In this document: positions 18,102 to 48,417 of the stretch, piece by piece
Layout of the letters: each line of letters opens with the position of its first letter
How positions within the stretch are numbered: the first letter of the stretch is position 1
Translations under genes and position numbers: made by a program
Assembly: GCA_944384745.1 (NCBI GenBank)
Contig: CALWUO010000005.1
Span: forward strand, 1-64,000
Direction of reading: 5' to 3'
DNA length: 64,000 nucleotides
Source: an uncultured Butyricicoccus sp.
GTDB taxonomy: Bacteria > Bacillota > Clostridia > Oscillospirales > Butyricicoccaceae
Notes under the pieces: model-generated
What the model saw: only the letters and a program-made list of their open reading frames with translations
Databases searched by the model: none
Told to the model about the DNA's origin: nothing

Positions 18102-18104
18102 AAA

Positions 18105-19236: not shown

Positions 19237-19248
19237 ATATATCACCCC

Positions 19249-20841
19249 TTATTGATACTTATTATTTGCCCATGTGTTTCCAGTGCCTTCATCGGTGTAA
19301 TCTTTACCCATTATATTGTTAGCAACTATAAGGTTGTTGTCACCTTTACAATGTATAGTATGTTGACTTGAACTATAATCAGCAGATGTTCCACTACCTC
19401 TAATAAAGGTGTTACCTGTAATTGTGTTATTGTTAGATTTAGATATATAAGCTCCACTCATATTGTCATTACAAATATCACCAGTTACAGTGTTATTGTT
19501 ACTGGTGTTAGAGATAGAAACTCCATAGTAATAATTATTATTACAGATATCTCCTGTGATTGTATTTCCACTAGAACCAGTTAGAGAAATACCAAAACTG
19601 TTATTATTACAAGTATTGTCTGTAATTGCATTATTGTTTGAAGTTGATAGATAAACTCCATAATTGCTATTGCTGTTACAAGTATTTCCCGTAATTGTGT
19701 TATTAGTTGAACCTGATATAGAAATTCCGTTTACACTGTTATTGCAAACATTGCCAGATATTACATTACTATCTGAGTTTGATATATAAACTCCATAACT
19801 GCTGTTATTGTTACAAGTAATTCCTTTAATAGTGCAATAACTGACGCTATTTATATAAATGCCGTGTCCAGATAAAAAGTAATCAGATTTATTGCCATCA
19901 ACTTGCAAATCAGATATAACACAATAATCAGCAGTAACATTTATAATTGCCGCATCAGCTTTCCACATTCGTTTTAGTATTGTGCTGTTTCCATTTCCAG
20001 AAAGTTTAGTGTTTGCCTTATTTATTTCAATAGATGAACCTATATTATAAGTACCATCAAGAATAATTATTTCTCCTCCAGTCTGTGGAAGTGCTTCAAT
20101 GGCTGCATTTATTTCTATATGGTCATCAGTGCCATCACAAAGGTAATCACAATCATCAATACTCCAGTTATTTGTAGTAGTACCAATGATAAATCTGCAA
20201 ACACGTTTTGACGAGCTACCAGAGCCACCAGAAGAAGAACCGCCTGATTTTTGGCTAAGAGCCTGTAACACTTGTTGAACATTACTTCCTGTAATTCCCG
20301 ATATAGGAGCAACACCTATACTACTAGCACCGCTTGTTGTGTTTAATGTATCCACAATATTTTTCATATTTGATACAGTTTGGTTTGTATTTTGAAGTTT
20401 GGTTTCAGTTTCAGATGTAAATGTTTCAACTTGTTGTTGAGTGTTTGAAACTTGCCATTGAGTGCTTGAAATTGAACTTGTAAGACTTGAAATTTTACCT
20501 TGAGCATTTGTAATTTGTTCTTGTGCATCTGATAGTGAGATTTTAATACCTGAAATATCACTTTGAGCGGAATTTGATTTTGACTGTGCATTTTGTGCGA
20601 TTGCGGCAATATTTCTAACTACCGTCTGAATATTTTGACCATCTACGCCAGAAACTACTAAACCTATATTACTAGCACCATTATCTGCGGTTAAATCATC
20701 AATAATACCATTGATTGCTGGTTTAAGCTGATTGGTATTGGAATCAAAAGCGGCTTTAAGAGCACTAGCCGTCATTTTAGGTTTATCCTCAAGGCTAGAA
20801 ACAGCTTGCGACCAGTCATTAACTTTTCTATCTGTTAACAT
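19249..20841 (-). CDS. Phage tail spike/fibre with parallel beta-helix repeats
   Basis: A 530-residue protein in three parts. Residues 1-90 look like a virion-attachment domain (KPKMTASALKAAFD, LTADNGASNIG). Residues 90-210 form a Gln/Ser/Thr-rich coiled coil ending in a Gly/Ser linker. Residues 225-530 form a right-handed beta-helix with NosD/pectate-lyase-type repeats of about 20-25 residues, each with an NxITGN-like turn. Such spikes bind or digest surface glycans of the host. No catalytic residues can be assigned. It lies between the hub protein and the lysis cassette. Confidence 0.75.
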   Translation of the reverse strand: MLTDRKVNDWSQAVSSLEDKPKMTASALKAAFDSNTNQLKPAINGIIDDLTADNGASNIGLVVSGVDGQNIQTVVRNIAAIAQNAQSKSNSAQSDISGIKISLSDAQEQITNAQGKISSLTSSISSTQWQVSNTQQQVETFTSETETKLQNTNQTVSNMKNIVDTLNTTSGASSIGVAPISGITGSNVQQVLQALSQKSGGSSSGGSGSSSKRVCRFIIGTTTNNWSIDDCDYLCDGTDDHIEINAAIEALPQTGGEIIILDGTYNIGSSIEINKANTKLSGNGNSTILKRMWKADAAIINVTADYCVISDLQVDGNKSDYFLSGHGIYINSVSYCTIKGITCNNNSSYGVYISNSDSNVISGNVCNNSVNGISISGSTNNTITGNTCNSNSNYGVYLSTSNNNAITDNTCNNNSFGISLTGSSGNTITGDICNNNYYYGVSISNTSNNNTVTGDICNDNMSGAYISKSNNNTITGNTFIRGSGTSADYSSSQHTIHCKGDNNLIVANNIMGKDYTDEGTGNTWANNKYQ

Positions 20842-20889
20842 ATATTCACCTTTCTTTCATTGCCTCCCTTGAGAGAGAAATATAAAGAG

Positions 20890-22806: not shown

Positions 22807-23188
22807 CGTTATAAACCTCCATTTCTGTTTCAATAGCAGGGGTAATTGAATTTATCATTTCAATAAATTTGTTATAAGCGAGAACTGACTCAGATTTTTT
22901 GTCATCGTCTGCTTCTAAGAATTTACTTTGCACCATATAAGGCATAGCCATGCGAGCAATTTCATCACAAAAAGGGATTTCGTAGTTTTCAAAATCAGCA
23001 CCAACTAAAAAAGGGGGAGCAAGAAGTTTATCTTGCCCCCTGAGTGTTCGGAACTGATTTTCATAAGGCAAACAAACCGCCATTATATGATTTAATATAG
23101 TAGGAAAAGCAGATTTTAATTCATCGTCATCATCTGGGATTTCATATACAAGATAACAACCTTGTTCATACAGTTCACGAGCAGTCAT
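22799..23188 (-). CDS. Putative head-tail connector protein
   Basis: A 129-residue acidic, mostly helical protein between the capsid and hub genes. It begins MTARELYEQGCYLVYEIPDDD and has no motif I can name. Position and size fit a head-completion or connector protein. The start at 23188 follows AAGGGG; the longer frame to 23230 runs into the capsid gene and lacks a better site. Confidence 0.45.
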   Translation of the reverse strand: MTARELYEQGCYLVYEIPDDDDELKSAFPTILNHIMAVCLPYENQFRTLRGQDKLLAPPFLVGADFENYEIPFCDEIARMAMPYMVQSKFLEADDDKKSESVLAYNKFIEMINSITPAIETEMEVYNDA

Positions 23189-23201
23189 AGTAAAAACCCC
23201 T

Positions 23202-24260
23202 TTATTCTGTTGCGATTTGCTTTTCAGCAATATCAGAAGTTACTTTGTTTTCCGTGTCCATGGCAACAGCTTTTAATAGTTTACCAGTAGCATTAAAAGC
23301 ACCAGTATAAATTTCTCTAGTCATAGAAAAACGAGGGTCAGAACCGTCAAGAGTGTAATAAATAGCTTTAGCACCCTCAGAAGTTAGAGTAACAGCGGTT
23401 ATTGAACTATCTGTGATAGTAGGTGTTGCCTGTTTAACAGACTCAAGCACCAAAGAATAAACAGCGTCAGCCTTAGAGCCAAGCACAAAAACGTCATATA
23501 GCTGTCTACCTTCAATAACAGCACCATTAATACCAACAGGGTCAGTATGTATTTTAGCTGCATTGATTTTATAAGGGAAAGCGACTGCTTGTTCATGCAC
23601 AGCGGTAAAGAAATGGTTTTCATCAAACATATAATCTGGGATTTCCACAATAGTGAAACCAGCAACCGAGCCAATAACACCAGTAGGCAACTGTTTACCC
23701 GCTAGATTATCAAGCCCACACCATTCTTTAGAAAGCATAATGTCAGGAGTCATAGAGGCAGGTATATAAATAAAACGACCTTCTCTAGGAACTCTATGGT
23801 TATTGAACCATGTACGAGCCTTAAATATTTCTGTTATAATATTTTCACTTGTAGGTTTAGACTCTGCTGTTGCAATATGTCCAAAGTTCATAATTTTATT
23901 TAATGCATATTTATCAGCAGTAGGAACTACTTGTTCTCTAATCTGCTGACGTAGCCACTGACCAGCCTTGTTAGTGATAGACTGAGCAGACTCATCACCC
24001 TTATCAACAACGCCAGTAAAAGATTTATCCTGTGACATTGTGTATTCAATAACAGTATCTTGAACATCTTCCAATTTACCATAACGACTAGAACCGCTTT
24101 TCTGATAATCCACCAATGCAGTAGTTTTAAGCATATAGACTCTAACTGTTTTAGCACCAGTGAAATCAACCTTAGCCTTGCTGTGTGATTTAATATAACT
24201 GTCCTGAGAAAAAGCGGACTCGATTTCTGGTGAATACTTAATTCCTAAATTTATTGCCAT
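23202..24260 (-). CDS. Major capsid protein with C-terminal Ig-like domain
   Basis: A 352-residue protein. Residues 1-275 resemble an HK97-fold coat protein: an extended N-arm, then a P-domain-like core with FIYIPASMTPDIML, GSVAGFTIVEIPDYM and a late AVIEGRQLYDVFVLGSKADAVY strand. Residues 279-350 form a chitobiase C-terminal-like (CHB_HEX_C) Ig-type domain, recognised by YYTLDGSDPRFSMTREIYTG and LLKAVAMDTENKVTSD. That domain probably projects from the shell. AAAGGAG precedes the ATG. Order portal-scaffold-coat is typical of tailed phages. Confidence 0.75.
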   Translation of the reverse strand: MAINLGIKYSPEIESAFSQDSYIKSHSKAKVDFTGAKTVRVYMLKTTALVDYQKSGSSRYGKLEDVQDTVIEYTMSQDKSFTGVVDKGDESAQSITNKAGQWLRQQIREQVVPTADKYALNKIMNFGHIATAESKPTSENIITEIFKARTWFNNHRVPREGRFIYIPASMTPDIMLSKEWCGLDNLAGKQLPTGVIGSVAGFTIVEIPDYMFDENHFFTAVHEQAVAFPYKINAAKIHTDPVGINGAVIEGRQLYDVFVLGSKADAVYSLVLESVKQATPTITDSSITAVTLTSEGAKAIYYTLDGSDPRFSMTREIYTGAFNATGKLLKAVAMDTENKVTSDIAEKQIATE

Positions 24261-24284
24261 AATAAAAAATCTCCTTTAAAAAAT

Positions 24285-24608
24285 TTACTTAGAAAGACCA
24301 CTGATGAAAGCATCTGATAGTATAGGGCTAGATGATAAAGAACCAATACTAGCGGTTTTGTTTTTATCATTTATCTGCATAGCACGGATAATTTCTTTAA
24401 GCTGTGCTATTTGATTTAAAAGTTCTGCTTCTCTGCTTTGAGAAAGGGCATCTGCTGGAGAAACCCCTGATTTAATAAGTTGAGCGATTTCAGGTGTTAA
24501 CTGTTGTTTAGATAAATTAGGATTAGCTTTAATTGCATCAATCCAAGGCTGAATAAGGTTCTGACAATTTGCAGACTGCATAGTATTAAGGTTTTGAATG
24601 TTGTTCAT
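24285..24608 (-). CDS. Small scaffold-like protein between portal and capsid genes
   Basis: A 107-residue, Gln-rich helical protein with a short coiled-coil segment (REAELLNQIAQLKEIIRAMQ, about residues 59-78). It has no recognisable domain. Its place between portal and coat genes is where scaffolding proteins usually lie. Its ATG overlaps the portal TGA by ATGA, and AAGGAG precedes it. Confidence 0.5.
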   Translation of the reverse strand: MNNIQNLNTMQSANCQNLIQPWIDAIKANPNLSKQQLTPEIAQLIKSGVSPADALSQSREAELLNQIAQLKEIIRAMQINDKNKTASIGSLSSSPILSDAFISGLSK

Positions 24609-26200
24609 GTATTTTTCACTCCTTGATTTTTTTGATTTTTTAGAGAATCAATAATTTGTTGTTTATTAGGTATATAACTATTAGGAATGGACTCAAGATA
24701 TAGCACAGGGTCAGGAATTACACCTGCTTGCATAAGTTTGTCCATATTGGTCATAGAAACAATTTCTGACCAGTAGGTAGCTGCACCGACTTCAACGTTT
24801 ATATCCATTGCACCTATTGAAAATTTGCTAAAATCAAGTAAAACATCTGATTTACTTTCTGTTTGAGAGCCATCTAGTGAAGTTTGTTTTAGGTTTACAC
24901 TTATGTATCTAATACCATAATAAGCACAAGCCATATCAACAATAATTCGTATACAATCCTCATTAAATTGTTCAAACATACGTTTTTGCAGTTCTAAAGG
25001 TGCATTACTAGCCTTTTGAGTTGCAAGTATAGCTGAAGTGTTGTCTGGGTTAGAGATATTACCCAAAGCGGTATCAGAAGCACCCATACAGTCTTTCATC
25101 ATACTTTGATACATTTCTATGCTAGAGAAAACACCGTTAGGCAGTTGTATACCACCAATAGGATTTGCTATAACTTCCCTAGGGTCGCCAGTGACCGCAA
25201 TAGGCTTAGACGGGTCACCGTTCCAACCATTAGGCAACCTTTGAATATTGTAAACCAGCTTAGGCATGGCGACATTTTGAGTATAAGCACCAATATAAGT
25301 AGCTTGTTTATTGATTGCTATTTGAGTTGGTATCATTTCGGTTATAGGGCTTATGCCATGCATACAGTTATTTCTTTCAATCCAACTAGCCCAAGCGATA
25401 GGATAAAGTGTCATATCTGTTTTAGTTTGAGGATAAGTTATCACATCACCACAAACTTTCATAAAATAAATATTTTCTGATACTTCTGGGATAGAGAATT
25501 CATCTTTTTGATTAGTAGTTTCGACTTTCCAAAGTCTAGTAAGTTCGGTTACAAGTTCACTTGAAACATTTTCATCTTCTCCAACGAATTCCGAACCTAT
25601 ATCGGACTGAATTTCGTCCCAGTCGATGATATTATTTTCTCTAGCCTCTTTTTTGACCTCGCTTAATGGTCTACGCCTAGCAATAATTATATAAGGCTGG
25701 CTTTGAACATCAGTGGAATAAGGATTTCCAAAAAAGACATTAGTGTTCATAAGAGGTTCGGCTACAATATCACCTTTAACAAGCTGACCAGTGTTAATTT
25801 TAGGGTTAAAAGTAAAATACATGCATAAATCGCCATCAACAACGCCATTTCTAAGGACTTTTCTATTTTTTGTTTTAATTGCTTGACGTTCAAATACACG
25901 TTCCACAACTGCATCAAGAGCTTGACATTCAATACTATTCTGGTCATTTGAGCTAAAAGGGCGAATATTCCAAGAGATATCATCAGAAACAACCTGTGAT
26001 TGAAAAAGCGAAGTAACACGCCTTAAAATATTAAATGTTACAGGCTGAATTTTTTTGGTATTAAGCCCTTCCCACTGTTTGCCCAGATAGAACTTTTCAT
26101 TTTTACGCACCTGTTCAAAAAGGTTTAGATTTTCCTTAAACTGTTTGCCTTTAGTGAATTCATCTTGTACTTTTTGTGCAGAAATATCGGATTTAATCAC
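24605..26200 (-). CDS. Phage portal protein
   Basis: A 531-residue protein of the P22/podovirus-like portal class. It starts with a long charged helix (KGKQFKENLNLFEQVRKNEKFYLGKQWEGL) and NILRRVTSLFQSQVVS, then a middle domain with PLMNTNVFFGNP and a helical stem/crown region containing DTALGNISNPDNTSAILATQKASNAPLE. The dodecameric portal forms the DNA entry vertex and docks the terminase. GTG at 26200 has AGGAG nine bases upstream and is preferred; the ATG at 26218 has no ribosome site. Confidence 0.8.
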   Translation of the reverse strand: MIKSDISAQKVQDEFTKGKQFKENLNLFEQVRKNEKFYLGKQWEGLNTKKIQPVTFNILRRVTSLFQSQVVSDDISWNIRPFSSNDQNSIECQALDAVVERVFERQAIKTKNRKVLRNGVVDGDLCMYFTFNPKINTGQLVKGDIVAEPLMNTNVFFGNPYSTDVQSQPYIIIARRRPLSEVKKEARENNIIDWDEIQSDIGSEFVGEDENVSSELVTELTRLWKVETTNQKDEFSIPEVSENIYFMKVCGDVITYPQTKTDMTLYPIAWASWIERNNCMHGISPITEMIPTQIAINKQATYIGAYTQNVAMPKLVYNIQRLPNGWNGDPSKPIAVTGDPREVIANPIGGIQLPNGVFSSIEMYQSMMKDCMGASDTALGNISNPDNTSAILATQKASNAPLELQKRMFEQFNEDCIRIIVDMACAYYGIRYISVNLKQTSLDGSQTESKSDVLLDFSKFSIGAMDINVEVGAATYWSEIVSMTNMDKLMQAGVIPDPVLYLESIPNSYIPNKQQIIDSLKNQKNQGVKNT

Positions 26201-26387
26201 GGTTACAATCTCCTGCATAGTTTAGTATTTTAGATAAATCATTATCAAATTCCGTGCTATTTAATTGATTATTATAAATCTGATTATTTAATATTTTCTG
26301 ATTAGATTTACCACATTGAAAACCAATAACAAAGAATATAGCACAACAGATAGATATTGCTAACACTTCAAAAGCCATTAAAATCAT
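26193..26387 (-). CDS. Small membrane protein between terminase and portal genes
   Basis: A 64-residue protein with one strong N-terminal transmembrane helix (MAFEVLAISICCAIFFVIGF) and an Asn/Gln-rich polar tail. GGAGG lies six bases before the ATG, and the gene overlaps the terminase end by 20 bases and the portal start by 8, so it is translated within the module. The function is unknown. Confidence 0.6.
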   Translation of the reverse strand: MILMAFEVLAISICCAIFFVIGFQCGKSNQKILNNQIYNNQLNSTEFDNDLSKILNYAGDCNRD

Positions 26388-27714
26388 TAAATTCCTCCAT
26401 TTCGTCTTCAAAATTTATAATATTTATTTTGTTATTTTTGACAGGTTCAGCAGGTAAAGGCAAACCATCACAAAAATATCTAAGTGCATCAGGTGCATGA
26501 GTGAGTTCATGAGGAGTTGTGGCTATATCATTAGGGTTTTTATCATCATGGCAAACAGCAGGTAAAGTTCTTATAAGGTTTCTGCAAGTGTTGAATATTT
26601 GAAGTTTTGGGCGAGAGCTACCAAAAACATCACTTTGAGGTCTAAGGTATCGTTTAACTTCATACCAACCAGCTTGTCTGCTATTGGAAACCTTTTCGAG
26701 ATATAATCCAAGCTCTGAGAAACGGTCGCTTACCGATTTACCAGTTTCTTGACGTCTGTTCCAAAGGTCTTTTGGTGCAAAAATGCTTGTTATTCTAGCA
26801 TATTCATCTGGTGTCATAGCGTTTTTAATTGCTCTAGCTGCATCATCAATAATAAGATTAGATTGATAAAGCTCACGATAAATGGTAACATATCCCAATA
26901 TATCAACGCTGTACCAATAACAAGCGAGCATGTCTAAACCATAATCAAGTGAAATATAAAGTCTGTTATTGTTGTCAAGACTATAAGGTTTGATAACATG
27001 AATTTTAGGATTAAACTCATCGAAATAAGCACCATCATTCAAATTCCAATCGCCATAAAGTAAAGCTTTTTGGTCTTGTTTTGATAAATTTTTAAGTCTT
27101 TGTTTATATTTAGGGTCATTTTTCATAAGAAAAACATTATCATCGACTTTAGATGGTATAAAAATTCTTGAACCAGCATCATATTTATAAACTGTCATAG
27201 GAGGCACAGGGTCAATAAAACGTTTTTTAACCCAGCTATGACCAACACCACTTGGATTAGTGGAGCTTTTAATTTGTTTTGGATAGCCATTAGTGCCACG
27301 CACACGGCTTATAAGATATGTATACATTATTTCGGTGAAATGAGTTAGTTCATCAAATCTTATAATGTCATATTCAGCCGATTGATATTTATAAATATCA
27401 TTTTCTGTATCACAGTTACCGAATTCAACCACAGAGCCATTGTTAAACTTCCAGATGTGACCGCTTGATTGATAGGTTGCTATTTCTCTTGGATAAAGTT
27501 CTAAACTTGTGCGAATAATAGATTTTTCAAGTTCTGGATATGTTCTTCTAAGGATAAGCTGTTTACTTTGTGGATATTTAACCGCAAATAGCAAAGCATC
27601 TATAATTTGAGCATAACTTTTTCCACCACCAGCCGCCCCACCGAAAAGGACTTCTTGTTCACAAGCGTTAATAAAAAGGTTTTGTTTTTGAGTAATTTTA
27701 ATTTCCATTTTCAT
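26368..27714 (-). CDS. Terminase large subunit
   Basis: A 448-residue DNA-packaging motor. The N-terminal ATPase has Walker A GGAAGGGKS (about residues 25-33) and Walker B IIRFDE (about 117-122), followed by the coupling motif SSTNPSG. The C-terminal RNase H-like nuclease starts at SLDYGLD and ends with a late acidic residue in HAPDALRYF. All key residues are present, so it looks functional. It overlaps the small-subunit gene by 17 bases. The start is ambiguous among closely spaced GTG/ATG codons at 27717, 27714 and 27708. Confidence 0.9.
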   Translation of the reverse strand: MKMEIKITQKQNLFINACEQEVLFGGAAGGGKSYAQIIDALLFAVKYPQSKQLILRRTYPELEKSIIRTSLELYPREIATYQSSGHIWKFNNGSVVEFGNCDTENDIYKYQSAEYDIIRFDELTHFTEIMYTYLISRVRGTNGYPKQIKSSTNPSGVGHSWVKKRFIDPVPPMTVYKYDAGSRIFIPSKVDDNVFLMKNDPKYKQRLKNLSKQDQKALLYGDWNLNDGAYFDEFNPKIHVIKPYSLDNNNRLYISLDYGLDMLACYWYSVDILGYVTIYRELYQSNLIIDDAARAIKNAMTPDEYARITSIFAPKDLWNRRQETGKSVSDRFSELGLYLEKVSNSRQAGWYEVKRYLRPQSDVFGSSRPKLQIFNTCRNLIRTLPAVCHDDKNPNDIATTPHELTHAPDALRYFCDGLPLPAEPVKNNKINIINFEDEMEEFNDFNGF

Positions 27715-28270
27715 CACATTCTGGTGTAATAAGCTTTATTTTGATTTCAAATAGATTTTCACTATTTTGGTTATTCTTTTTTTCGCTCCAAATTTCGGGT
27801 TTATGGTTTTTAAGCCAAATCATTTGGGCGGTGGTGTCAGGCGGAGCATGTTTTTTGGTTATAACAGTTTTTTCACCTGTTTTCTCAGTGTATTCTGTGC
27901 GTTCTTCTAAATAGTTATAACCTAAAGCCCTTTTAAGAAGAGAATATTCAACAGCACTTGCAATATCACCGTTTTTTATTTTATCCTCCAACTTTTTCAT
28001 AGCACTGAGCATATATTTTTCAGTATTAAATGGCATATTTTTATTTTGCTTTTGCGTAATATTGTTTGATAAATTATGACACTTAAGTTTTGTAAAAGCG
28101 TCAGAGTTAAAAACTTCAGCAAAAGCCGCATTATTTTTGCACCACTTTTTTAGTGTCCGCAAAGTTATACCGATTTCTTGGGCAATTTCTTCTTTAGATT
28201 TACCCTTTTCATGCCAATCTTTAATTTTTTGTATATTGTCATCAGTAAGCCATGAATTTATTTTATTCAA
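27698..28270 (-). CDS. Terminase small subunit
   Basis: A 190-residue DNA-recognition subunit of the packaging enzyme. A helix-turn-helix lies near the N-terminus (GKSKEEIAQEIGITLRTLKK). The centre and C-terminal part (GDIASAVEYSLLKRALGYNY, then a TEKTGEKTVITKKHAPPDT segment) matches small terminases of Firmicute phages. It is the first gene of the module. TTG 28270 has GGAGGTGA seven bases upstream and is preferred; an ATG at 28288 would put that site inside the gene. Confidence 0.8.
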   Translation of the reverse strand: MNKINSWLTDDNIQKIKDWHEKGKSKEEIAQEIGITLRTLKKWCKNNAAFAEVFNSDAFTKLKCHNLSNNITQKQNKNMPFNTEKYMLSAMKKLEDKIKNGDIASAVEYSLLKRALGYNYLEERTEYTEKTGEKTVITKKHAPPDTTAQMIWLKNHKPEIWSEKKNNQNSENLFEIKIKLITPECDENGN

Positions 28271-28330
28271 ATCATCACCTCCAATCATAAAAGATTAAAA
28301 ACAAACAATGGCATCATCTCCTTTTATTCT

Positions 28331-38138: not shown

Positions 38139-39389
38139 TTACTTCACTCCAATATCTGTGCGGAAATGCACACCATCAAAGTGAATTTTCTTAACATCAG
38201 CATACGCTTTTTGTATTGCCTCGTCAAGAGTTTTTGCATTAGCAGTAACACCAAGCACACGACCGCCATTAGTAACCATAACGCCATTATCTAATTTTGT
38301 ACCAGCATGATAAACCATACTTTCAGTTACCTTTTCCAAACCAGTGATAACTTTACCCTTTTCATAGCTTGCAGGATAACCACCAGAAGCCATACAAACA
38401 CAACAAGCGGCATTATCAGACCATTTAATATCTATGTTTTCAAGAGTTCCATCAATAACCGCATTAAAGATATCAAAAATATCTGTTTCAAGTCTTGAAA
38501 GTACAGCTTGAGTTTCAGGGTCACCAAAACGGGCATTATATTCAATTACCTTAGGACCTTTAGGAGTTAACATAAGCCCAAAATAAATAACCCCTTTAAA
38601 TGTTCTGCCCTCTTTAGCCATAGCATCAATAGTTGGGCGGAAAATAGTATCCATACAAGTCTTAGCTATTTCATCAGTATACATTCTTGATGGAGAAAAA
38701 GCACCCATACCGCCAGTGTTAGGACCTTTGTCATGGTCATAAGCACGTTTATGGTCTTGAGCAGATGGCATAGTTTTAATAGTTTTACCATCAGTAAACG
38801 CTAGAACAGAAACTTCAGGACCAGTTAAAAATTCCTCAATAACAACTTTAGCACCAGCACTTCCAAAAGCACCACCGTCCATTGCATCTTTAACGGCATT
38901 TATAGCATCTTCTTCTGTCATAGCAACAGTAACGCCTTTACCTAAAGCCAAACCATCAGCCTTTACAACAATAGGTGCACCTTGTTCTTTGATATATTCA
39001 ATAGCCTTAGCTGAGTCATCAAAAACAGCATAATTTGCGGTTGGAATATTGTATTTTTTCATTAAATCCTTAGCAAAAGATTTAGAACCCTCAATAATCG
39101 CTGCATTTTTATGAGGACCAAATGCACGTATACCAGCGTTTTCTAAAGCGTCAACCATTCCAAGAGCTAGAGGGTCATCAGGAGCAACCATAACTAAATT
39201 AGGCTTATTTTCCTTAGCGAAAGCAACCATTTTTTCTATATCAGTTGCTTTTATATCCACACATTCAGCAATACTTGATATACCTCCATTACCTGGAGCA
39301 CACCAAATTTTATCTACTTTTGGACTTTTACTAAGTGCATGACAGATTGCGTGTTCACGACCGCCACCACCTACAACTAGAACTTTCAT
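38139..39389 (-). CDS. purD: Phosphoribosylamine-glycine ligase
   Basis: A 416-residue ATP-grasp enzyme making glycinamide ribonucleotide (second step of de novo purine synthesis). The N-terminal motif VVGGGGREHAI, the ATP-grasp lid GAPIVVKADGLALGKGV, PSAQDHKRAYDHDKGPNTGG and the metal-binding VIEYNARFGDPETQ are all intact. Length is typical. GGAGAT precedes the ATG. A 150-base hairpin-rich gap separates it from the transformylase gene upstream. Confidence 0.95.
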   Translation of the reverse strand: MKVLVVGGGGREHAICHALSKSPKVDKIWCAPGNGGISSIAECVDIKATDIEKMVAFAKENKPNLVMVAPDDPLALGMVDALENAGIRAFGPHKNAAIIEGSKSFAKDLMKKYNIPTANYAVFDDSAKAIEYIKEQGAPIVVKADGLALGKGVTVAMTEEDAINAVKDAMDGGAFGSAGAKVVIEEFLTGPEVSVLAFTDGKTIKTMPSAQDHKRAYDHDKGPNTGGMGAFSPSRMYTDEIAKTCMDTIFRPTIDAMAKEGRTFKGVIYFGLMLTPKGPKVIEYNARFGDPETQAVLSRLETDIFDIFNAVIDGTLENIDIKWSDNAACCVCMASGGYPASYEKGKVITGLEKVTESMVYHAGTKLDNGVMVTNGGRVLGVTANAKTLDEAIQKAYADVKKIHFDGVHFRTDIGVK

Positions 39390-39430
39390 AAGCTATCTCC
39401 TTTTTTATTCAAAACTTTAAAGTTTCCGTC

Positions 39431-39532
39431 CACCCTTTTCAAAGGGTGGTGAAGTCCAGAGGCAAAGCCTTTGGTCGCTTTCTATAAAAGCGAAATTCTA
39501 AAGCGTGCCACAAAAGAAACTGCGACACGCTT
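39431..39532. repeat. Array of four hairpins between AICARFT and purD genes
   Basis: Successive inverted repeats are CACCCTTT/AAAGGGTG (39431-39448), CCAGAGGC/GCCTTTGG (39456-39473), TCGCTTT/AAAGCGA (about 39475-39493) and AAGCGTG/CACGCTT (39501-39532). The stacked layout resembles a dispersed intergenic repeat element; only one copy is present here. Confidence 0.6.
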
Positions 39533-39539
39533 AATTTTT

Positions 39540-40712
39540 TTAGTGGTGGAATAAACGCATTCCTGTAAAGCTCATAACCATATTATATTTATTTGCAGTC
39601 ATAATTACATGGTCATCACGAATAGAGCCACCTGGTTGAACAATAAATTCTACACCAGATTTTCTAGCACGTTCAACATTATCACCGAATGGGAAAAATG
39701 CATCAGAGCCAACAGTAACGCCTGTATTTTTACCAATCCAAGCTTTCTTTTCTTCAGCAGTTAAAATTTCAGGTTTAACTTTAAAAGTCTGCTGCCAAAC
39801 ACCATCAGCTAATATGTCTTCATATTCATCAGAAATATAAAGGTCTATTGCATTATCTCTATCTGGTCTTCTGATACCATCAACAAATTGTAAACCTAAA
39901 ACTTTAGGGTGCTGACGTAAAAACCAGTTATCAGCTTTATTTCCTGCAAGACGTGTGCAATGAATACGGCTTTGCTGACCTGCACCCACACCAATAGTTT
40001 GACCGTTTTTAACATAGCAAACAGAATTAGATTGAGTATATTTAAGAGTGATAAGAGCAACAATCATATCAAGAGCCGCTTCATCAGTTAGGTTTTTATT
40101 ATCAGTTACAATATTGTTTAATAAATCTTTTGTGATTTTAAAATCATTGTAACCCTGTTCAAATGTAACGCCAAAAACATCACGTTTTTCAATAGCCTTA
40201 GGCTTGTAATTCTCATCAATCTTGATGACATTATATCCGCCCTTACGCTTTCTTTTAAGTATTTCCAAAGCTTCATCAGTGAAATCTGGTGCAATAATGC
40301 CGTCAGAAACCTCAGTTAAAAGCAAATTAGCGGTATCAGCATCACAAGTGTCACTAAGTGCCACAAAATCGCCATAAGAACAAAGACGGTCAGCACCTCT
40401 AGCACGAGCATATGCAGAAGCAATAGGAGAAAGATTATCTGCGTCTACAAAATACATTTGCTTTTCTGTTTCGGTTAAAGGATAACCAAGAGCCGCACCT
40501 GCTGGGGATACATGTTTAAAAGATGCTGCTGCTGCATAACCAGTTGCTTCTTTTAGCTGTCTAACAAGCTGATAAGCGTTAAAAGCATCTAAGAAATTTA
40601 TATAACCTGGTTTACCGTTTAGCACTTCTATTGGAAGTTCACCTTCAGTCATAAAAATACGTGAAGGCTTTTGGTTAGGGTTACAACCATATTTAAGAGT
40701 TAATTCTTTCAT
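39540..40712 (-). CDS. purH: AICAR transformylase domain protein (stand-alone, without IMP cyclohydrolase)
   Basis: A 390-residue protein matching the transformylase half of PurH: NPNQKPSRIF, ASFKHVSPAGAA with the catalytic Lys-His pair, GADRLCSYGDFVALSD, and the late SDAFFPFGDNVERARKSGVEFIVQPGGSIRDD motif. It converts AICAR to FAICAR with formyl-tetrahydrofolate. The N-terminal MGS-like IMP cyclohydrolase domain of normal PurH is absent, and the next gene upstream encodes a separate cyclohydrolase. AAGGTG precedes the ATG. Confidence 0.9.
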   Translation of the reverse strand: MKELTLKYGCNPNQKPSRIFMTEGELPIEVLNGKPGYINFLDAFNAYQLVRQLKEATGYAAAASFKHVSPAGAALGYPLTETEKQMYFVDADNLSPIASAYARARGADRLCSYGDFVALSDTCDADTANLLLTEVSDGIIAPDFTDEALEILKRKRKGGYNVIKIDENYKPKAIEKRDVFGVTFEQGYNDFKITKDLLNNIVTDNKNLTDEAALDMIVALITLKYTQSNSVCYVKNGQTIGVGAGQQSRIHCTRLAGNKADNWFLRQHPKVLGLQFVDGIRRPDRDNAIDLYISDEYEDILADGVWQQTFKVKPEILTAEEKKAWIGKNTGVTVGSDAFFPFGDNVERARKSGVEFIVQPGGSIRDDHVIMTANKYNMVMSFTGMRLFHH

Positions 40713-40721
40713 AAATTCACC

Positions 40722-41438
40722 TTACTTCTGGTATTTATTCTTGATAATAGTTTCTGTTTTACCTGTTTCAAGGTCAATATAACGAACAAATAGAGAAATC
40801 TTATTTACTTCATTCATAGACTCCCAAAGCATATTTGCAAAATCATTGATATCATAATCAATTTGAATACACTTAGGCTCACCTCTAAATGGTGGTAGTG
40901 GGTCACCGTCACACATATAAGTATGTATAAAATGACCAAGACCAGCAACAGGTTTATCGTATTCATAGAAGAAACGCTTGTTAGCTGTGCGGTCAGAAGT
41001 GAAATTCTTTAGAATAGAGATATCATAAGAACCATCTTCATTTACAACCGCAGAAATACGAGAAGTATAATTTGGAGCGTCTGGCTCAAACTGACGAGTG
41101 CGTAAAGCCTCAATATAACTCTTACCCTGCTTTAAGTATTCACAGATAGTATCTGTTTGGTCACCGTTTGTAACTATGGTTTTACCTCCACAAACACGTA
41201 CAGGGTGATAAATAATAAGTGAAGGGTCGGTCATCTTTGAAGGGTCAAAAGCCTCTGTGCGTATACCGTCCTCTGTTTCAACAAAAACACGGTTTCGGCT
41301 ATTTTCAGAACGACCCATAATAAAATAAGCGATAACATTTTTTTTGTTATCCTTAGTTCTGCCAAGGATTATTCCACGACCTGGATAAGCATTGCTTTGC
41401 AATTCCTCTTGAATATTGTATACAAAATTACGAAACAT
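40722..41438 (-). CDS. purO: IMP cyclohydrolase, PurO type
   Basis: A 238-residue protein of the IMP cyclohydrolase-like family first known from archaeal PurO. Recognisable parts are the N-terminal YPGRGIILGRTKDNKKNVIAYFIMGRSENSRNR region, then PSLIIYHPVRVCG, VTNGDQTDTI and the RISAVV segment. It closes FAICAR to IMP, the last step of the pathway. It lies 9 bases before the transformylase gene, so the two together replace bifunctional PurH. AGAGGT precedes the ATG. Confidence 0.88.
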   Translation of the reverse strand: MFRNFVYNIQEELQSNAYPGRGIILGRTKDNKKNVIAYFIMGRSENSRNRVFVETEDGIRTEAFDPSKMTDPSLIIYHPVRVCGGKTIVTNGDQTDTICEYLKQGKSYIEALRTRQFEPDAPNYTSRISAVVNEDGSYDISILKNFTSDRTANKRFFYEYDKPVAGLGHFIHTYMCDGDPLPPFRGEPKCIQIDYDINDFANMLWESMNEVNKISLFVRYIDLETGKTETIIKNKYQK

Positions 41439-41456
41439 AAATATAAACCTCTTTTC

Positions 41457-42086
41457 TTAGTTTTCAGGCAAAATTTTAACCATTTGACCATTGATTTGCA
41501 AACGGTTTTCACAAAATAGCGATACAGCACGGGGTAAAATATGCCATTCAGCCTGCTCCATAACACGTCTTTGCAAAATTTCTGGAGTATCGTCTGGCAT
41601 AACTTCAACTGCTTTTTGTAAAATTATAGCCCCACCATCAACTATTTCAGAAACAAAATGCACAGTTGCACCTGTTACCTTTACACCTTTAGCAAGTGCG
41701 GCTTCATGAACATGCAGTCCATAAAAACCCTCACCGCAAAAAGATGGTATAAGTGATGGGTGAACATTTATAATTTTATTTTCCCATTTTTTACAAAAAC
41801 AATCAGGTAATACGGTCATAAATCCTGCAAGTACTACTAAGTCTATTTTAATCTGACATAGCATTGTATCAAGTGCTACGCCATAATCTTGAGCTGTTTC
41901 ATAATCTTTTCTTTTTAAGATATAGGACGGAATAAATGCTTCCTTTGCACGTTCTAAAGCATAAGCATTTGGGTTAGATGAAATCACAGCGGTAATACTA
42001 CCGCCATGAATTTCGCCATTTTGCTCTGCGTCAATAAGTGCTTGTAAATTCGTTCCGCCACCAGAAACCAATACAGCTATATTCAC
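41457..42086 (-). CDS. purN: Phosphoribosylglycinamide formyltransferase
   Basis: A 209-residue formyl-THF-dependent GAR transformylase. The N-terminal VLVSGGGTNLQALIDA, catalytic INVHPSLIPSF (Asn-His) and GATVHFVSEIVDGGAII with the catalytic Asp are present. GTG at 42086 is preferred since AGAGG lies nine bases upstream; TTG 42092 is too close to it. It follows purM by 13 bases. Confidence 0.93.
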   Translation of the reverse strand: MNIAVLVSGGGTNLQALIDAEQNGEIHGGSITAVISSNPNAYALERAKEAFIPSYILKRKDYETAQDYGVALDTMLCQIKIDLVVLAGFMTVLPDCFCKKWENKIINVHPSLIPSFCGEGFYGLHVHEAALAKGVKVTGATVHFVSEIVDGGAIILQKAVEVMPDDTPEILQRRVMEQAEWHILPRAVSLFCENRLQINGQMVKILPEN

Positions 42087-42099
42087 AGTCAAAAACCTC

Positions 42100-43137
42100 T
42101 TAAACTAAAGTAATACCCTTTTCGCCTGTTGTGATTTCGCCCATAATATAAGCGGTTTCACCAGCGTCAGCCAGAGCTTTAATGGCTTTATCAGCATCAC
42201 TTGCTGGAACAGCAACCATAAGACCAATACCCATATTAAATGTATTATACATATCACGTTCTGGAATGTTGCCCGCTTTAGCTATAACATTAAAAATAGG
42301 TAGTACAGGAGCAGAGTTTTTACGGATAACCGCATGAGTGTTTTCACCTAACATACGAGGTACATTCTCATAGAAACCGCCACCAGTGATATGGCTAATA
42401 GCCTTAACATCAACGTTAGCTATAAGATTTTGAATTGCCTTTACATAAATCTTAGTTGGAGTTAAAAGCTCTTCGCCTAATGTTTTTCCAAGTTCATCAA
42501 CATATTTTTTAACAGAGTTTTCATCAATACCAAGAGTTTTGCGAACCAATGAATAACCATTTGAGTGAACACCAGAAGATGCAACACCGATTAAAACATC
42601 ACCAGCAGTTAGTTTACTTCCATCAATCATCTTCTTTTTATCAACCATACCAACGGAGAAACCAGCCACATCATATTCATCAACTGGATAAAAACCTGGC
42701 ATTTCAGCGGTTTCACCACCGATTAAAGCACAACCCGCTTGACGACAGCCTTCAGTAATACCAGAAACAATGCTTGCTACACGCTCAGGGAAGTTTTTAC
42801 CAACAGCTATATAATCAAGGAAAAACAGAGGTTTTGCACCACAACAAGCGATATCATTAACACACATAGCAACTGCATCAATACCAATAGTATCATGCTT
42901 ATCCATTAAAAAAGCAAGTTTTAGCTTAGTACCAACACCATCAGTACCAGAAACCAGAACAGGCTCTTCCATGCCTTTAAAATCAGGCTGGAAAAGACCA
43001 CCAAAACCGCCAAGGCTACCAATAACCCCTGGAATAAAAGTGCTTTCAACCATAGGTTTAATAAGTTTTACAGATTCATAACCAGCAACAACATCTACAC
43101 CTGCTGCTTTGTAGCTTTCGGAACGGCTCTCACTCAT
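42100..43137 (-). CDS. purM: Phosphoribosylformylglycinamidine cyclo-ligase
   Basis: A 345-residue AIR synthetase. Family motifs [48 protein letters not shown] and [14 protein letters not shown] are intact. It closes the imidazole ring of AIR in an ATP-dependent step. Its ATG overlaps the purF stop by ATGA. Length is standard. Confidence 0.95.
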
Positions 43138-44597
43138 AATTCAATCTCACTTTCAAACATATTTTTATCCACTTGATTTGGAACTTCCATAGGGTACTCA
43201 CCAGTAAAGCAAGCATCACAGAAACCAAGTTTACAATTCAATGCAATACGTCTTGTAGCCTCAACCGATAAGAAACCAAGGCTGTCAACACCGATAATCT
43301 GACGCATTTCTTCCACAGTACGTTCATGAGCCAAAAGCTGAGTACGTTCAGGGATATCAGTACCAAAGAAACAAGGGTGACGGAAAGGAGGTGCAGAAAT
43401 TCTCATATGTACCTCTTTAGCACCAGCATCACGAACAAGTTTTACAAGTCTAGCACAGGTTGTACCACGAACAATGGAGTCATCAACCATAATAACACGC
43501 TTGCCATTTACAGCCTCTCTAAGGGCATTTAATTTTAGACGGACAGAACGTTCACGCTTTGATTGACCTGGTTGAATAAAAGTTCTGCCAATATAACGGT
43601 TTTTAATAAGACCAACACCATAAGGGATACCAGAACATTTAGCGTAACCAATAGCCGCAGGAATACCAGAATCAGGCACACCAATAACAACATCAGCACC
43701 TACTGGGTGCTCAATAGAAAGATATTTTCCCGCTTCTTGACGAGCAAGTTCAACAGATGAACCATCAATAACAGAGTCAGGACGAGCAAAATAAATATAT
43801 TCAAATACGCAAGCGGCAGATTTACATTTAATTTCGCTATGTAAAGAACGGATTTCACCGTTTTCAACTATAACAACTTCACCTGGTTCAATATCACGCA
43901 CAAATTCAGCTCCCAGAGCATCTAATGCACAAGACTCAGAGGCAAATATAATAACGCCTTCTGCTGTTTTACCCATGCAAAGCGGACGCATTCCACGAGG
44001 GTCACGAGCTGCAATCAGTTTACGAGGTGACATAATACATAATGAATATGCACCTTGAACCACATTCATAGTATTAAGCACAGCTTCTTCAATAGAGCCA
44101 CACTTTAAACGCTCACGAACAATAGTATAAACTAAAACTTCAGTGTCTGATGTTGAACGGAAAATGCCACCTGTTGTTTCAATTTCCTTGCGTAACTCAC
44201 TAGCATTTACAAGATTACCATTGTGAGCAACAGCTAAATTACCTTTGATATGAGTTATAGAAAGAGGTTGAGCGTTTTCACGGTGAGGGTCACCAGTTGT
44301 TGAATAACGCACATGACCGATAGCCATTTGACCTACCATACTATCAAGAATTTGCTGGTCAAAAACATCATTTACAAGACCAATATCCTTATGGCACTTG
44401 ATAACACCACGGTTATTTACTGCAATACCACAAGCCTCTTGACCTCTATGTTGAAGTGCAAAAAGAGCAGTATAAGCTTCATGAGCAGGGCTTAAATTAC
44501 AACCTTCTGGGATATAGATACCAAATACACCACATTCTTCATGTACAGCATCAGAATCAAAAGGAGTGCGATTTAATTTTTTCATTTTATATTTCAT
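43134..44597 (-). CDS. purF: Amidophosphoribosyltransferase
   Basis: A 487-residue first committed enzyme of purine synthesis, transferring glutamine nitrogen to PRPP. A propeptide of about 21 residues precedes the nucleophile Cys22 (EECGVFGIY), as in the Bacillus-type Fe-S enzyme. The PRPP motif [13 protein letters not shown] is intact, and C-terminal cysteines ([19 protein letters not shown]) fit the [4Fe-4S] ligands. A second ATG four codons in is an alternative start. Confidence 0.95.
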
Positions 44598-44623
44598 AAT
44601 ATTTAAAATTTCCTCTTAAATAA

Positions 44624-45334
44624 TTATTTACCAGTTAAACGACGTAGAATTTCCTGATAAGCTTCTTCAACATTGCCAAGGTCACGACGGAAACGGTCTT
44701 TGTCGAGTTTTTCGCCTGTGTCCTTATCCCATAGACGGCAGGTATCAGGAGAGATTTCATCAGCCAAGATAATAGTACCATCAGCAGTTTTACCGAACTC
44801 AAGTTTAAAGTCAACCAAAGTTACATTTAAGGTATCAAAATAAGCTTTCATAACTTCATTTACTTTAAACGCCATTTTTTTAATGGTTTCGATTTCCTCA
44901 GCAGTAGCCAGTTTTAAAGCCATAGCATGATAATCATTAATAAGTGGGTCACCTAAATCATCATTTTTATAAGAAAACTCAATGGTTGGCTGGTCAAAAA
45001 CAATGCCCTCATTTACACCATAACGTTTAGCAAAAGAACCAGCGGAAATGTTACGGATAATAACTTCAAGTGGTACAATAGAAACCTTTTTAACAACGGT
45101 TTCACGCTCAGAAAGCTGTTCAACAAAGTGAGTAGGAACACCCTGCTTTTCAAGCAGTTGGAACATATGGTTACTCATAATATTGTTAATAACGCCTTTA
45201 CCAGCAATAGTGCCTTTTTTCTCTCCATTAAAAGCGGTTGCATCATCTTTATAATCTACAATATATAGGTTTTCATCATCGGTTTTAAAAACTTTCTTAG
45301 CTTTGCCTTCATATAATTGTTCTAACTTTGTCAT
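44624..45334 (-). CDS. purC: Phosphoribosylaminoimidazole-succinocarboxamide synthase
   Basis: A 236-residue SAICAR synthetase joining CAIR and aspartate. Signature parts are YEGKAKKVF at the N-terminus, [30 protein letters not shown] and [15 protein letters not shown]. Size is normal for the bacterial monofunctional enzyme. AAGGAG precedes the ATG. It lies 32 bases downstream of purE and upstream of purF. Confidence 0.95.
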
Positions 45335-45366
45335 TTTAGTAATTCTCCTTTTTGATGTATTATAAA

Positions 45367-45858
45367 TTATTTATATTCTGCTCTAACCTTAGCGTCCTTA
45401 GCAGAAACCTCATCAGCCATATCTTTTTTAAACTGTTCTAATTTTTGTGCAAGTGTATCATCTGATAAAGCGATAATTTGTGCGGCTAAAATAGCGGCAT
45501 TTTCTGCACCATCAATGGCAACACAAGCTACTGGAATACCCTTAGGCATTTGAACCATAGAAAGTAAGCTGTCCATACCACCCATAACACTTGTACCCAT
45601 AGGCACACCAATAACAGGCAGAGTTGTATAAGCGGCAATTACACCACCAAGATGAGCTGCTTTGCCAGCCGCTGCAATAATAACACCAAATCCGTCATTT
45701 TTTGCGTTTTTAGCAAGGGTTTCCGCAGCAAGTGGGGTACGGTGTGCGGAAACAATACGCACTTCAAACGGAATTTCAAATGTTTTTAGTTTATCAATAC
45801 ATTTGCTCATAACTTTTAGGTCGCTATCTGAACCCATTACAATACATACCTTTTTCAT
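45367..45858 (-). CDS. purE: N5-carboxyaminoimidazole ribonucleotide mutase
   Basis: A 163-residue class I PurE that converts N5-CAIR to CAIR. The N-terminal [21 protein letters not shown] with the catalytic His, [14 protein letters not shown] and [27 protein letters not shown] motifs are intact. It is the first structural gene of the purine operon. Its usual partner purK is absent from the window. TGGAGG precedes the ATG, about 40 bases after an attenuator-like hairpin. Confidence 0.95.
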
Positions 45859-45900
45859 TTGCGAAAATCCTCCAAAAGATAAAAAATATACTGGTTGACC

Positions 45901-45936
45901 AAAAAAGAAATGCAGGATACAACTGTACCCTGCATC
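45901..45936 (-). terminator. Attenuator-like terminator upstream of purE
   Basis: ATGCAGGGTAC and GTATCCTGCAT form an 11-bp stem with a 4-base loop, followed on the - strand by TTCTTTTTT. It starts only about 5 bases after the leader ORF stop codon and lies between the promoter and purE. Confidence 0.8.
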
Positions 45937-45940
45937 TTAG

Positions 45941-46024
45941 TTATTTGGTTATAAAAATGCCTGCAAAAGTGCCATGCTTATAAATATATGTTTGGCTTAT
46001 TAAGAAAACGCCTGAACTTAGCAT
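45941..46024 (-). CDS. 27-residue leader peptide of the purine operon
   Basis: A small ORF starting MLSSGVFLIS and ending TFAGIFITK. It has a very strong ribosome site (AAGGAGG, 7 bases before ATG), better than those of most genes here, which argues that it is translated. It is mildly hydrophobic. It lies between a good promoter and a terminator hairpin that begins right after its stop codon, in front of purE. A ribosome at the stop would cover the hairpin's 5' arm, so translation could control read-through. No codon run names the signal. Confidence 0.55.
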   Translation of the reverse strand: MLSSGVFLISQTYIYKHGTFAGIFITK

Positions 46025-46067
46025 GATAATGCCTCCTTATGCAGTCAATGAGTTACTTATATCATAT

Positions 46068-46096
46068 ATTTTATCCAGTAAACATAACGGTTTCAA
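46068..46096 (-). promoter_or_regulatory. Promoter of the purine operon
   Basis: On the - strand TTGAAA (46091-46096) and TAAAAT (46068-46073) are separated by 17 bases. The leader ORF begins about 37 bases after the predicted start point. No purine or PRPP riboswitch fold is recognisable in the leader. Confidence 0.7.
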
Positions 46097-46173
46097 GCTT
46101 TTTTAATAGTGTTTTTAAAAATCGTATACTTGCCCAAAAGAAAAGGTGCAATTACAAAAAGGTTTGTCGTGTT

Positions 46174-48417
46174 CTACTCTTGTCTGCGATGTTTTTCCAG
46201 AAGTTCACATACAGAAATTACATTTTGATGTTCACGTTTGCGGAGCATTTCAGCGGTTTGACGCACTTCTTCATCTAACTTACCAGTTACACATTCATCA
46301 ATAAGTGGTATAAGCTTGTCGGCAGTTACCTCACTTAATGGAATACATGTTCTACTGCCTATATATTTAAGAAACCCATCTACTTTTATATCATAGCTCA
46401 TGCCAATAACAGGAACACCAGCAGCAGCAGAAAACATAAGCGAATGCAGTCTAATACCAATAACCGTTTTCATACGAGCTAAAATTCCTATTGTAGTTTC
46501 TATTGATTGGCGTTTTGTTATCATATAATGAGGACATTTTAACTTATTGCATATTTGCTCGGCAGGTTCTAAATCTGATGGATATTCAATAGGCACAAAG
46601 AGCGGTATAAGACCATATTTTTCATATGCATAGTGAGCGGCTTTTACAATCTCATCGGCAACATCATCTAAGCTTTTCCATTTTCTTATGCCAAATCCGA
46701 TATAATTTTTATCAAGTGGAACATTACATTCTTCAAACGCTTGATTTACAAGCAAATCACTAGCGGGTTTTAAAATAATGGTAGGGTCGGCAGAAAGTCT
46801 TATGTCTGGTTTTACAATACCCATACTGTTTAATTCCCCACGTGATAAATCATCACGCAAAGTTATAATATCTACCGAACGGTTTATAGTTTTAGCGGCA
46901 CACTTTCTATTAGTTGGGTCATTTATCGGACCAATTCCGCAACCATACATAATAACCTTACAGCCCATTCGTTTAGCTTGGTCTAATGTTAAAAGATAAT
47001 ATCTAAGTGAACGGGTTGAGGTAACATCTTGCATAAGGCTACCACCACCATTTATATAAAGGGCGGATTTATGCAGTCTTTTTAAAATCTGGTCAAATCT
47101 AAATGTATAAACAGCATCTGTGCGATAAACAAGTTTGGTTTCAAGAGGACGTCTTGACATAACAGTTATTCTGCGGTCAGGGTCTATTGCACGCATTTCT
47201 TGAACAATAGCTTTTAATATAGCATCATCACCCGAGTTACCTTTACCATAAGCACCACAAATAACTATTTCATCACGTTTAAATTTCTTTTCACGCTCAA
47301 ATCGTCTTATAACAGTTTTATAGTTATTTATTTGAGTTTGACACATGGTTGTAATAGAAAAATCTCTGTCTGCTTTTTCATAAAGTTTTTTAGCGAATGT
47401 TTGACGTTTTTGCTCATCGTTTGCTAATATAAGAATGTCCTTTGCAAGAGTTTGATAATCTCTAGGCTGGAAAATAAACCCATTTTCACCGCTATCTATA
47501 AGTTCACTCATACCACCAACATCAGAGCATATTGTAGCACAACCTTCTCTTATACCCTCTAGTATAGAATATGGGAATGTTTCAGATACTGAGGTTAATA
47601 AATTTATATCAATAGAGGCAAAGAATTTATCCATTTCTTTAACCCAGCCGCAAAATAGCACTTTATCTTCTATATTAAGTGACTGAATAAGTCTTTTAAG
47701 AGGTTTTTCGTCCTCACCATCACCCGCTAAAAATAATTTTAATTTAGGCTGTTCTTTAGCAGCAATAGCAAAACCTTTAACGCATGTAAAAATATCTTTA
47801 ACCGCTGTAAGTCTAGCCGCTATACCACATATTATATCATCATCGGATACATTCATTCCCCATTTATCTTTTATATAAGAAATCCTATCAAAATCCTTGA
47901 TAGGGTCTTTAAAATCCATACCATTATATATAATACACATTTTTTGTGGGTCAAATCCACGGGTTATAAGTGTTCTAGCCATTCTATCAGCAACAGGCTG
48001 ATGAAAGTCCATAAATCTAAGAGCTATTGTATTTAATAAACCATATGTGTATTGTTTAAGTGGATTTCCCATATAATCTAATTTATAATCAGAATGTACA
48101 GTGGTCATAATAGGTATATTAGTTTTTTTTGCTCCAATCATAACCCCTATAACATTTGATTTTGAGCCATGACAATGAATTATATCGGGTTTAAATTCAT
48201 CAATAAGTTTAAGAACTTTATTTCTACAAGTAAAAAGATTGAGATACTCAAATATTTTTACATTAAGACCACGTTTGATAGCCTCTCTTGGAAAATCGCC
48301 ATCTCTAAAGCTTACCAGACACACATCATTTTCTTTACTAAGTGCTTGAACAAGCGTCATGATATGGGTTTTCGCACCGCCTACATCGCCACCACCCATC
48401 ATCTGCAATATTCGCAT
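46174..48417 (-). CDS. Fusion of a GT4 glycosyltransferase and a CsaB-type polysaccharide pyruvyl transferase
   Basis: A 747-residue two-enzyme protein. Residues 1-370 are a GT-B glycosyltransferase of family 4: MGGGDVGGAKTH near the N-terminus, AARLTAVKD, VSETFPYSILEGIREGC with the nucleotide-sugar Glu. Residues 383-747 are a pyruvyl transferase of the CsaB/WcaK family: GAYGKGNSGDDAI, INGGGSLMQD, YGCGIGP and GIRLHSLMFSAAAGVPV. CsaB ketal-pyruvylates secondary wall polymers so that SLH-domain proteins can dock. The fusion suggests that both act on the same wall glycan. GGAGG precedes the ATG. Confidence 0.88.
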   Translation of the reverse strand: MRILQMMGGGDVGGAKTHIMTLVQALSKENDVCLVSFRDGDFPREAIKRGLNVKIFEYLNLFTCRNKVLKLIDEFKPDIIHCHGSKSNVIGVMIGAKKTNIPIMTTVHSDYKLDYMGNPLKQYTYGLLNTIALRFMDFHQPVADRMARTLITRGFDPQKMCIIYNGMDFKDPIKDFDRISYIKDKWGMNVSDDDIICGIAARLTAVKDIFTCVKGFAIAAKEQPKLKLFLAGDGEDEKPLKRLIQSLNIEDKVLFCGWVKEMDKFFASIDINLLTSVSETFPYSILEGIREGCATICSDVGGMSELIDSGENGFIFQPRDYQTLAKDILILANDEQKRQTFAKKLYEKADRDFSITTMCQTQINNYKTVIRRFEREKKFKRDEIVICGAYGKGNSGDDAILKAIVQEMRAIDPDRRITVMSRRPLETKLVYRTDAVYTFRFDQILKRLHKSALYINGGGSLMQDVTSTRSLRYYLLTLDQAKRMGCKVIMYGCGIGPINDPTNRKCAAKTINRSVDIITLRDDLSRGELNSMGIVKPDIRLSADPTIILKPASDLLVNQAFEECNVPLDKNYIGFGIRKWKSLDDVADEIVKAAHYAYEKYGLIPLFVPIEYPSDLEPAEQICNKLKCPHYMITKRQSIETTIGILARMKTVIGIRLHSLMFSAAAGVPVIGMSYDIKVDGFLKYIGSRTCIPLSEVTADKLIPLIDECVTGKLDEEVRQTAEMLRKREHQNVISVCELLEKHRRQE

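Follow-up and report, generated by a model that had tools for sequence, protein, structure and literature searches.

The analysed window, a stretch of 64,000 nucleotides from an uncultured Butyricicoccus sp., carries on its minus strand an eight-gene pur operon, ahead of which lies, on the same strand, a leader composed of a promoter-like site, a short ORF preceded by a Shine-Dalgarno (SD) sequence, and a terminator hairpin. The features which concern us are as follows.

46096..46068, minus strand: promoter-like site TTGAAA-17-TAAAAT (consensus scan, 10/12).
46038..46032, minus strand: SD sequence AAGGAGG of the leader ORF (from the sequence; invariant in five species).
46024..45941, minus strand: leader ORF of 27 codons, MLSSGVFLISQTYIYKHGTFAGIFITK followed by a stop codon, with its ATG at 46024 (position and frame kept in relatives).
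45973..45962, minus strand: pause-like motif GGCACTTTTGC followed by A, with C-1 (the RNA 3' end) at 45963 and the incoming A at 45962 (invariant in five species).
45961..45950, minus strand: second copy of the motif, GGCATTTTTATA, degenerate here and in the window's own genus and intact (GGCATTTTTGCA) in L006 and L009.
45937..45908, minus strand: terminator hairpin with a 13-bp stem, then CUUUUUUGG.
45907..45898, minus strand: U-rich tail of the terminator, CUUUUUUGGU.
45858..45367, minus strand: purE, the first gene of the operon (ORF and Pfam).
45858..38139, minus strand: pur operon, comprising purE, purC, purF, purM, purN, IMP cyclohydrolase, AICAR transformylase, and purD (ORFs and Pfam).

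An earlier note, made from the sequence alone, had placed a 27-codon ORF with a good ribosome site between a promoter-like site and a strong terminator, and all of these elements are present on the minus strand as it described them; the terminator does start past the stop codon, but after 3 nt rather than about five. The hairpin is predicted to fold at -18.5 kcal/mol (z = -5.7 versus shuffles), and Markov shuffles of the window leader produced a comparable SD-preceded ORF ending at the hairpin in 0.8% of instances. Promoter-like sites in general were no more frequent in the consensus scan than in shuffles; both hexamers of the site listed above are kept across the window's genus. A segment upstream of this promoter (46110-46135), which reads AAGTATACGATTTTT here and AAGCATACGAAATT in Intestinimonas, also recurs in the upstream regions of L076-L109, and it may represent a candidate operator. 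Within the operon, a separate IMP cyclohydrolase (PF07826) is encoded beside the AICAR transformylase ORF (PF01808) at 39540-41438, in place of a single bifunctional PurH. Elsewhere in the window, a single ORF at 46174-48417 specifies a glycosyltransferase fused to a polysaccharide pyruvyl transferase, and a run of minus-strand ORFs (16764-28288), encoding amidase-, capsid-, portal-, and terminase-like proteins, is prophage-like by inspection.

The upstream regions of purE were gathered from the window's genus, family, order, and class, many of the compared genomes being metagenome assemblies, and were searched for an SD-preceded ORF of 16 to 45 codons which ends within -6 to +12 nt of the hairpin. 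In the first set (L001-L170), which comprises the family of the window and the Oscillospiraceae (e.g., Flavonifractor and Intestinimonas) along with additional families in the order, such an ORF was present in 87 of the 104 terminator-bearing purE leaders, compared with 4.2 expected from shuffles, the sequences being related and thus not fully independent; this count is used in preference to a separate one of 36/40, which was based on leaders preselected for an ORF. A second set of families within the order, again including related sequences, returned the layout in 7 of 12 leaders (0.7 expected), and it was found in none of the seven terminator-bearing leaders from other orders and in none of ten riboswitch-bearing purE loci. 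The layout is, therefore, found across relatives far more often than chance would allow, and the conservation of the ORF lends good support to the suggestion of the earlier note that these pur genes are preceded by a leader whose translation exerts control. Most clusters exhibit a gap of about 0 to 12 nt between stop codon and hairpin. In L019, a metagenome assembly in which purE begins at 1501, a 1-nt deletion relative to L058 shifts the frame such that no stop codon precedes the terminator, while the motif region is retained; this represents either decay or an assembly error.

The absence of a purine or PRPP riboswitch, as proposed in the same note, was borne out by Rfam, in which neither the window leader nor any of 20 leader-type loci matched a family at threshold, with ZTP, purine, PRPP, and other aptamers all being absent at the gathering threshold. 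A riboswitch instead occupies the slot ahead of purE at 14 sister loci, of which three belong to the window's own family, and the terminator scan used for the leaders registered a terminator at ten of the 14. The ZTP riboswitch (RF01750) accounts for 12 loci (L129, L149, and L169, which belong to the window's family, and L210, L217, L229, L237, L254, L260, L261, L262, and L266), and the purine riboswitch (RF00167) accounts for two (L214 and L227). Both are aptamer based and are not accompanied by a leader ORF ending at the terminator, and the leader type described here matches neither family. As judged from these loci, the leader type and the riboswitch type are swapped between close lineages in a single regulatory slot. 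The arrangement was not found in the purL and purA leaders of related genomes, nor was it found at pyrB and guaB, and it is, therefore, considered to belong to the purE operon among the genes tested. The purL leaders of Butyricicoccus (L174-L182) harbor long conserved stretches, CCCCTTTGATTAAATTATACAC and a TTGTC..TTTGACCAAAT-like sequence, with no evident leader ORF, and these may constitute a different control element.

The earlier note had suggested that alignment of relatives would discriminate between a conserved peptide and a conserved RNA, and the outcome favors the latter, in the form of a nucleotide motif, while the peptide is weakly conserved and diverges between genera. The encoded peptides of Agathobaculum (MTGSVFLMQTVEKPGHSCMVSGIGAAH), Flavonifractor (MSSLHWFYANWRSIHGTNLSNLRV), and a relative of Intestinimonas (MAYFKDVFCHNSYGNLYGIFVSKISR) are not recognizably similar, and their C-terminal residues vary. 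The pN/pS ratio was 0.34 in the window's genus, about 0.5 to 0.9 in two larger groups, and above 2 in one group of seven with few changes. Conservation at synonymous sites increased toward the end of the ORF, the rate of change falling from 0.30 before to 0.00 within the last 12 codons in the window's genus, from 0.31 to 0.18 in one Agathobaculum group, and from 0.54 to 0.21 in Flavonifractor; the low-divergence group displayed no such additional conservation in its last 12 codons.

A de novo motif search (ZOOPS EM) was applied to the 75 nt preceding the hairpin in 40 leader clusters, defined at a 65% nucleotide identity cut, and returned GGCMTTTNTGCR (G G C M T T T N T G C R), for which the log-likelihood ratio was 119 nats. 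Synonymous-codon shuffles, in which all peptides were kept, yielded 60±6 nats (maximum, 79), and dinucleotide shuffles yielded 54±3 nats. The exact consensus GGN6TG[CT][AG] was present in 26 of the 40 clusters, compared with 8.2 (maximum, 12) in synonymous-codon shuffles and 4.2 (maximum, 9) in dinucleotide shuffles, and in only 3/40 on the opposite strand and 3/40 in the 80 nt upstream. The motif is located in the 3' half of the ORF, mostly 15 to 30 nt ahead of the hairpin, and its last copy lies at least 46 nt past the start codon in all matching leaders but one. Among eight leaders from families outside the training set, four returned a shuffle P value of ≤0.012, and one more carried the exact consensus (P = 0.13). 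The remaining 14 of the 40 clusters are without the exact consensus, and the leaders of some genera have no clear pause; Flavonifractor mostly retains G-11, G-10, Y-1, and G+1, with CC rather than TG at positions -3/-2. An inverted repeat, GCA-N4-TGC, was also considered as a protein-binding site; it is compatible with the Agathobaculum leaders but not with that of Intestinimonas (GGCCGCAATGCG), and it was dropped in favor of the pause consensus discussed below, which fits both.

Where G-x-x-[AV] is encoded in frame within the last 75 nt of the leaders, the third codon ends in T and the fourth in A or G in 76% of cases, as opposed to 7% in purE genes. In Agathobaculum leaders, moreover, the second copy of the motif occupies a different reading frame. 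These comparisons indicate that the motif is selected at the nucleotide level; a weaker component at the peptide or codon level is also possible, because most copies lie in frame 0.

The same codon-level tests bear on the reading which was favored at first on account of a GIFA-like C terminus and was subsequently ranked down, namely, that the nascent peptide responds to a ligand by stalling the ribosome near the stop codon, in the manner of tnaC or tlrB, and so blocks the terminator. That the stop codon adjoins the hairpin would suit such an arrest, as would the frequency of G-x-x-A near the C terminus, mostly in frame 0, and the observation that synonymous shuffles still hold twice as many motif matches as dinucleotide shuffles. 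Nevertheless, C termini which vary by genus leave no conserved arrest peptide, pN/pS lies at 0.3 to 0.9 in most groups, the codons used for G-x-x-A are under much tighter constraint than the peptide itself, and one motif copy resides in another frame, which together render this explanation improbable. We regard as more improbable still an RNA element, or a site for an RNA-binding protein, which overlaps the ORF and for which translation is incidental. Conservation at the nucleotide level and the ability of the two Agathobaculum copies to pair are in its favor, but RNAalifold analysis of two groups identified no competing structure and no antiterminator with covariation support, Rfam was silent at the 20 leader-type loci, and the SD sequence, start codon, frame, and stop position are all preserved across genera. 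With regard to such pairing, the two copies in Agathobaculum (L035-L059) can form a hairpin which ends at the second pause site, and in all Flavonifractor sequences (L076-L109, at about 1310-1500) the purE SD sequence ACAGG..GGU could base-pair with ACC..CCUGU in the motif region; the latter pairing, which is invariant and thus devoid of covariation support, is a possible additional control of purE translation.

The conserved motif resembles a known signal for pausing of RNA polymerase (RNAP). The pause-inducing element defined by RNET-seq in E. coli consists of G-10 (or G-9/G-11) together with TGC-1G+1, backtracking being promoted in part by weak U-dA pairs at -4 to -7 (PMC4457086), and a recent review gives the pause consensus as G-10 and Y-1G+1 (PMC12288461). 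The leader motif, with G at -11/-10, a U-rich stretch at -7 to -5, TGC at -3 to -1, and a purine at +1, matches the E. coli element, and although the consensus derives from other species, the motif probably acts as a functional RNAP pause. When the +1 position was left free, GGN6TGC was followed by A in 17, G in 14, C in 1, and T in 1 instance (purine in 31/33). Only this position is constrained to purine, the bases which follow being mostly pyrimidine, unlike a run of a single nucleotide. The general pause consensus itself includes a purine at +1, which for this reason constitutes weak evidence for the sensing of purines. The motif was missed in the earlier note, whose question as to what the peptide senses was probably the wrong one, as the likely sensor would be RNAP, pausing before a purine nucleotide, rather than the peptide.

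In E. coli, a stop codon positioned 5 bp from a terminator reduces termination from about 90% to <10% through the action of the ribosome, whereas in amino-acid attenuators the distance between stop codon and terminator exceeds 20 bp (PMC4824070). Direct occlusion by the ribosome thus fits the gaps of about 0 to 12 nt observed here, which also agree with the claim of the earlier note that the position of the ribosome at the stop codon would decide the fate of the hairpin, and occlusion of the adjacent terminator by the ribosome is, by analogy, very probable. A classical attenuator of the trp/his type is hardly credible, since, although it shares a translated leader ORF and an intrinsic terminator ahead of a biosynthetic operon, both its regulatory codon run and its alternative antiterminator are absent and the stop codon lies too near the hairpin (PMC4824070).

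On the basis of the above, we propose a ribosome-operated attenuator of the pur operon which follows the logic of E. coli pyrBI but reads purine rather than pyrimidine supply, a model which we consider evenly poised between being right and being wrong. RNAP transcribing the leader would pause at GGCACTTTTGC before the addition of a purine (A at 45962), thereby allowing time for a ribosome to load at the strong SD sequence and to close up behind it, such that the two become recoupled. As RNAP resumes through the terminator, the trailing ribosome would reach the stop codon and, from a distance of 3 nt, cover the 5' arm of the hairpin, so that purE is read; the spacing of motif, stop codon, and hairpin is what suggests this succession of pause, catch-up, terminator cover, and read-through. 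Scarcity of ATP or GTP would prolong the wait for the purine, the signal thus being the end product by analogy with pyrBI, while plentiful ATP and GTP would shorten the pause, allow RNAP to outrun the ribosome and the hairpin to form, and so stop transcription. That the level of purine nucleoside triphosphates sets the pause and serves as the signal is the least direct element of this scheme, and we would give it an even chance.

The pyrBI operon, with its leader pyrL, offers the closest parallel, as it likewise has a leader ORF in a nucleotide-pathway operon with no antiterminator and combines it, in the way proposed here, with a pause which couples the ribosome to RNAP and with ribosomal blocking of an intrinsic terminator (PMC4824070, PMC5021804), its pause sites being responsible for the coupling (PMC4824070). 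The two systems differ in that pyrBI concerns pyrimidine genes in E. coli and the present leader purine genes in Bacillota, and the pyrBI terminator lies within the 135-bp leader gene, while here it lies past the stop codon. Furthermore, pyrBI relies on UTP-dependent pausing, whereas in the leader described here an element matching the pause consensus precedes a single purine. The UTP-dependent pausing of pyrBI is located in U-rich tracts. The anatomy is predicted to work like that of pyrBI, and membership among NTP-sensing attenuators is likewise a prediction.

Counting against the model, runaway transcription is assigned to Bacillota at the level of the phylum (PMC13323073). In Bacillus subtilis tlrB, a pause allows the leader ribosome to load (PMC6851288), and local recoupling is, therefore, possible in this phylum. 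Both tlrB and vmlR share with the model proposed here a pause which allows leader translation and a ribosome near the stop codon which prevents the terminator from forming (PMC6851288, PMC12288461), but their signal is antibiotic-induced ribosome stalling, unlike that proposed here, and tlrB additionally possesses an SD-sequestering hairpin. Their pause is also NusG dependent, with a TTNTTT motif at -11 to -6 (PMC12288461), where the present leader has GG at -11/-10; TTNTTT is not matched in the leader motif, the T-richness of which is only moderate and confined to -7 to -5.

These B. subtilis systems equally illustrate the strongest alternative, in which the same pause-coupled, occluded terminator operates but the pause only synchronizes ribosome and RNAP, regulation being set by translation capacity, by ppGpp, or by a ribosome that is slow to leave the stop codon. 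All of the structural evidence fits this alternative equally well, the tlrB and vmlR pauses serve precisely the loading of a leader ribosome (PMC6851288, PMC12288461), and the purine at +1 belongs to the general consensus. It does, however, leave unexplained why purE has the device when purL, purA, guaB, and pyrB do not, and why it exchanges with ZTP and purine riboswitches, and we judge it rather unlikely. The attenuator which senses purine nucleotides is retained as the preferred reading, and we tentatively, and with somewhat less than even confidence, view the leader as the purine counterpart of pyrBI in Bacillota, in which codons are kept for the sake of a pause that awaits ATP or GTP, local recoupling ensues, and the whole is interchangeable with riboswitches. 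No earlier report of a pur leader peptide was found in the open-access literature (subscription papers lay outside the search), and the findings suggest a previously unreported mode of sensing purine supply.

If this proposal is true, NTP-sensing, ribosome-dependent attenuation would be extended beyond the pyrimidine pathway to that of purines and would reach abundant gut Bacillota which are thought to lack transcription-translation coupling. The leader would also provide a natural case of a pause consensus under visible selection, allowing pausing, recoupling, and occlusion of the terminator to be examined in a single system, within a regulatory slot where a translated leader and riboswitches replace one another.
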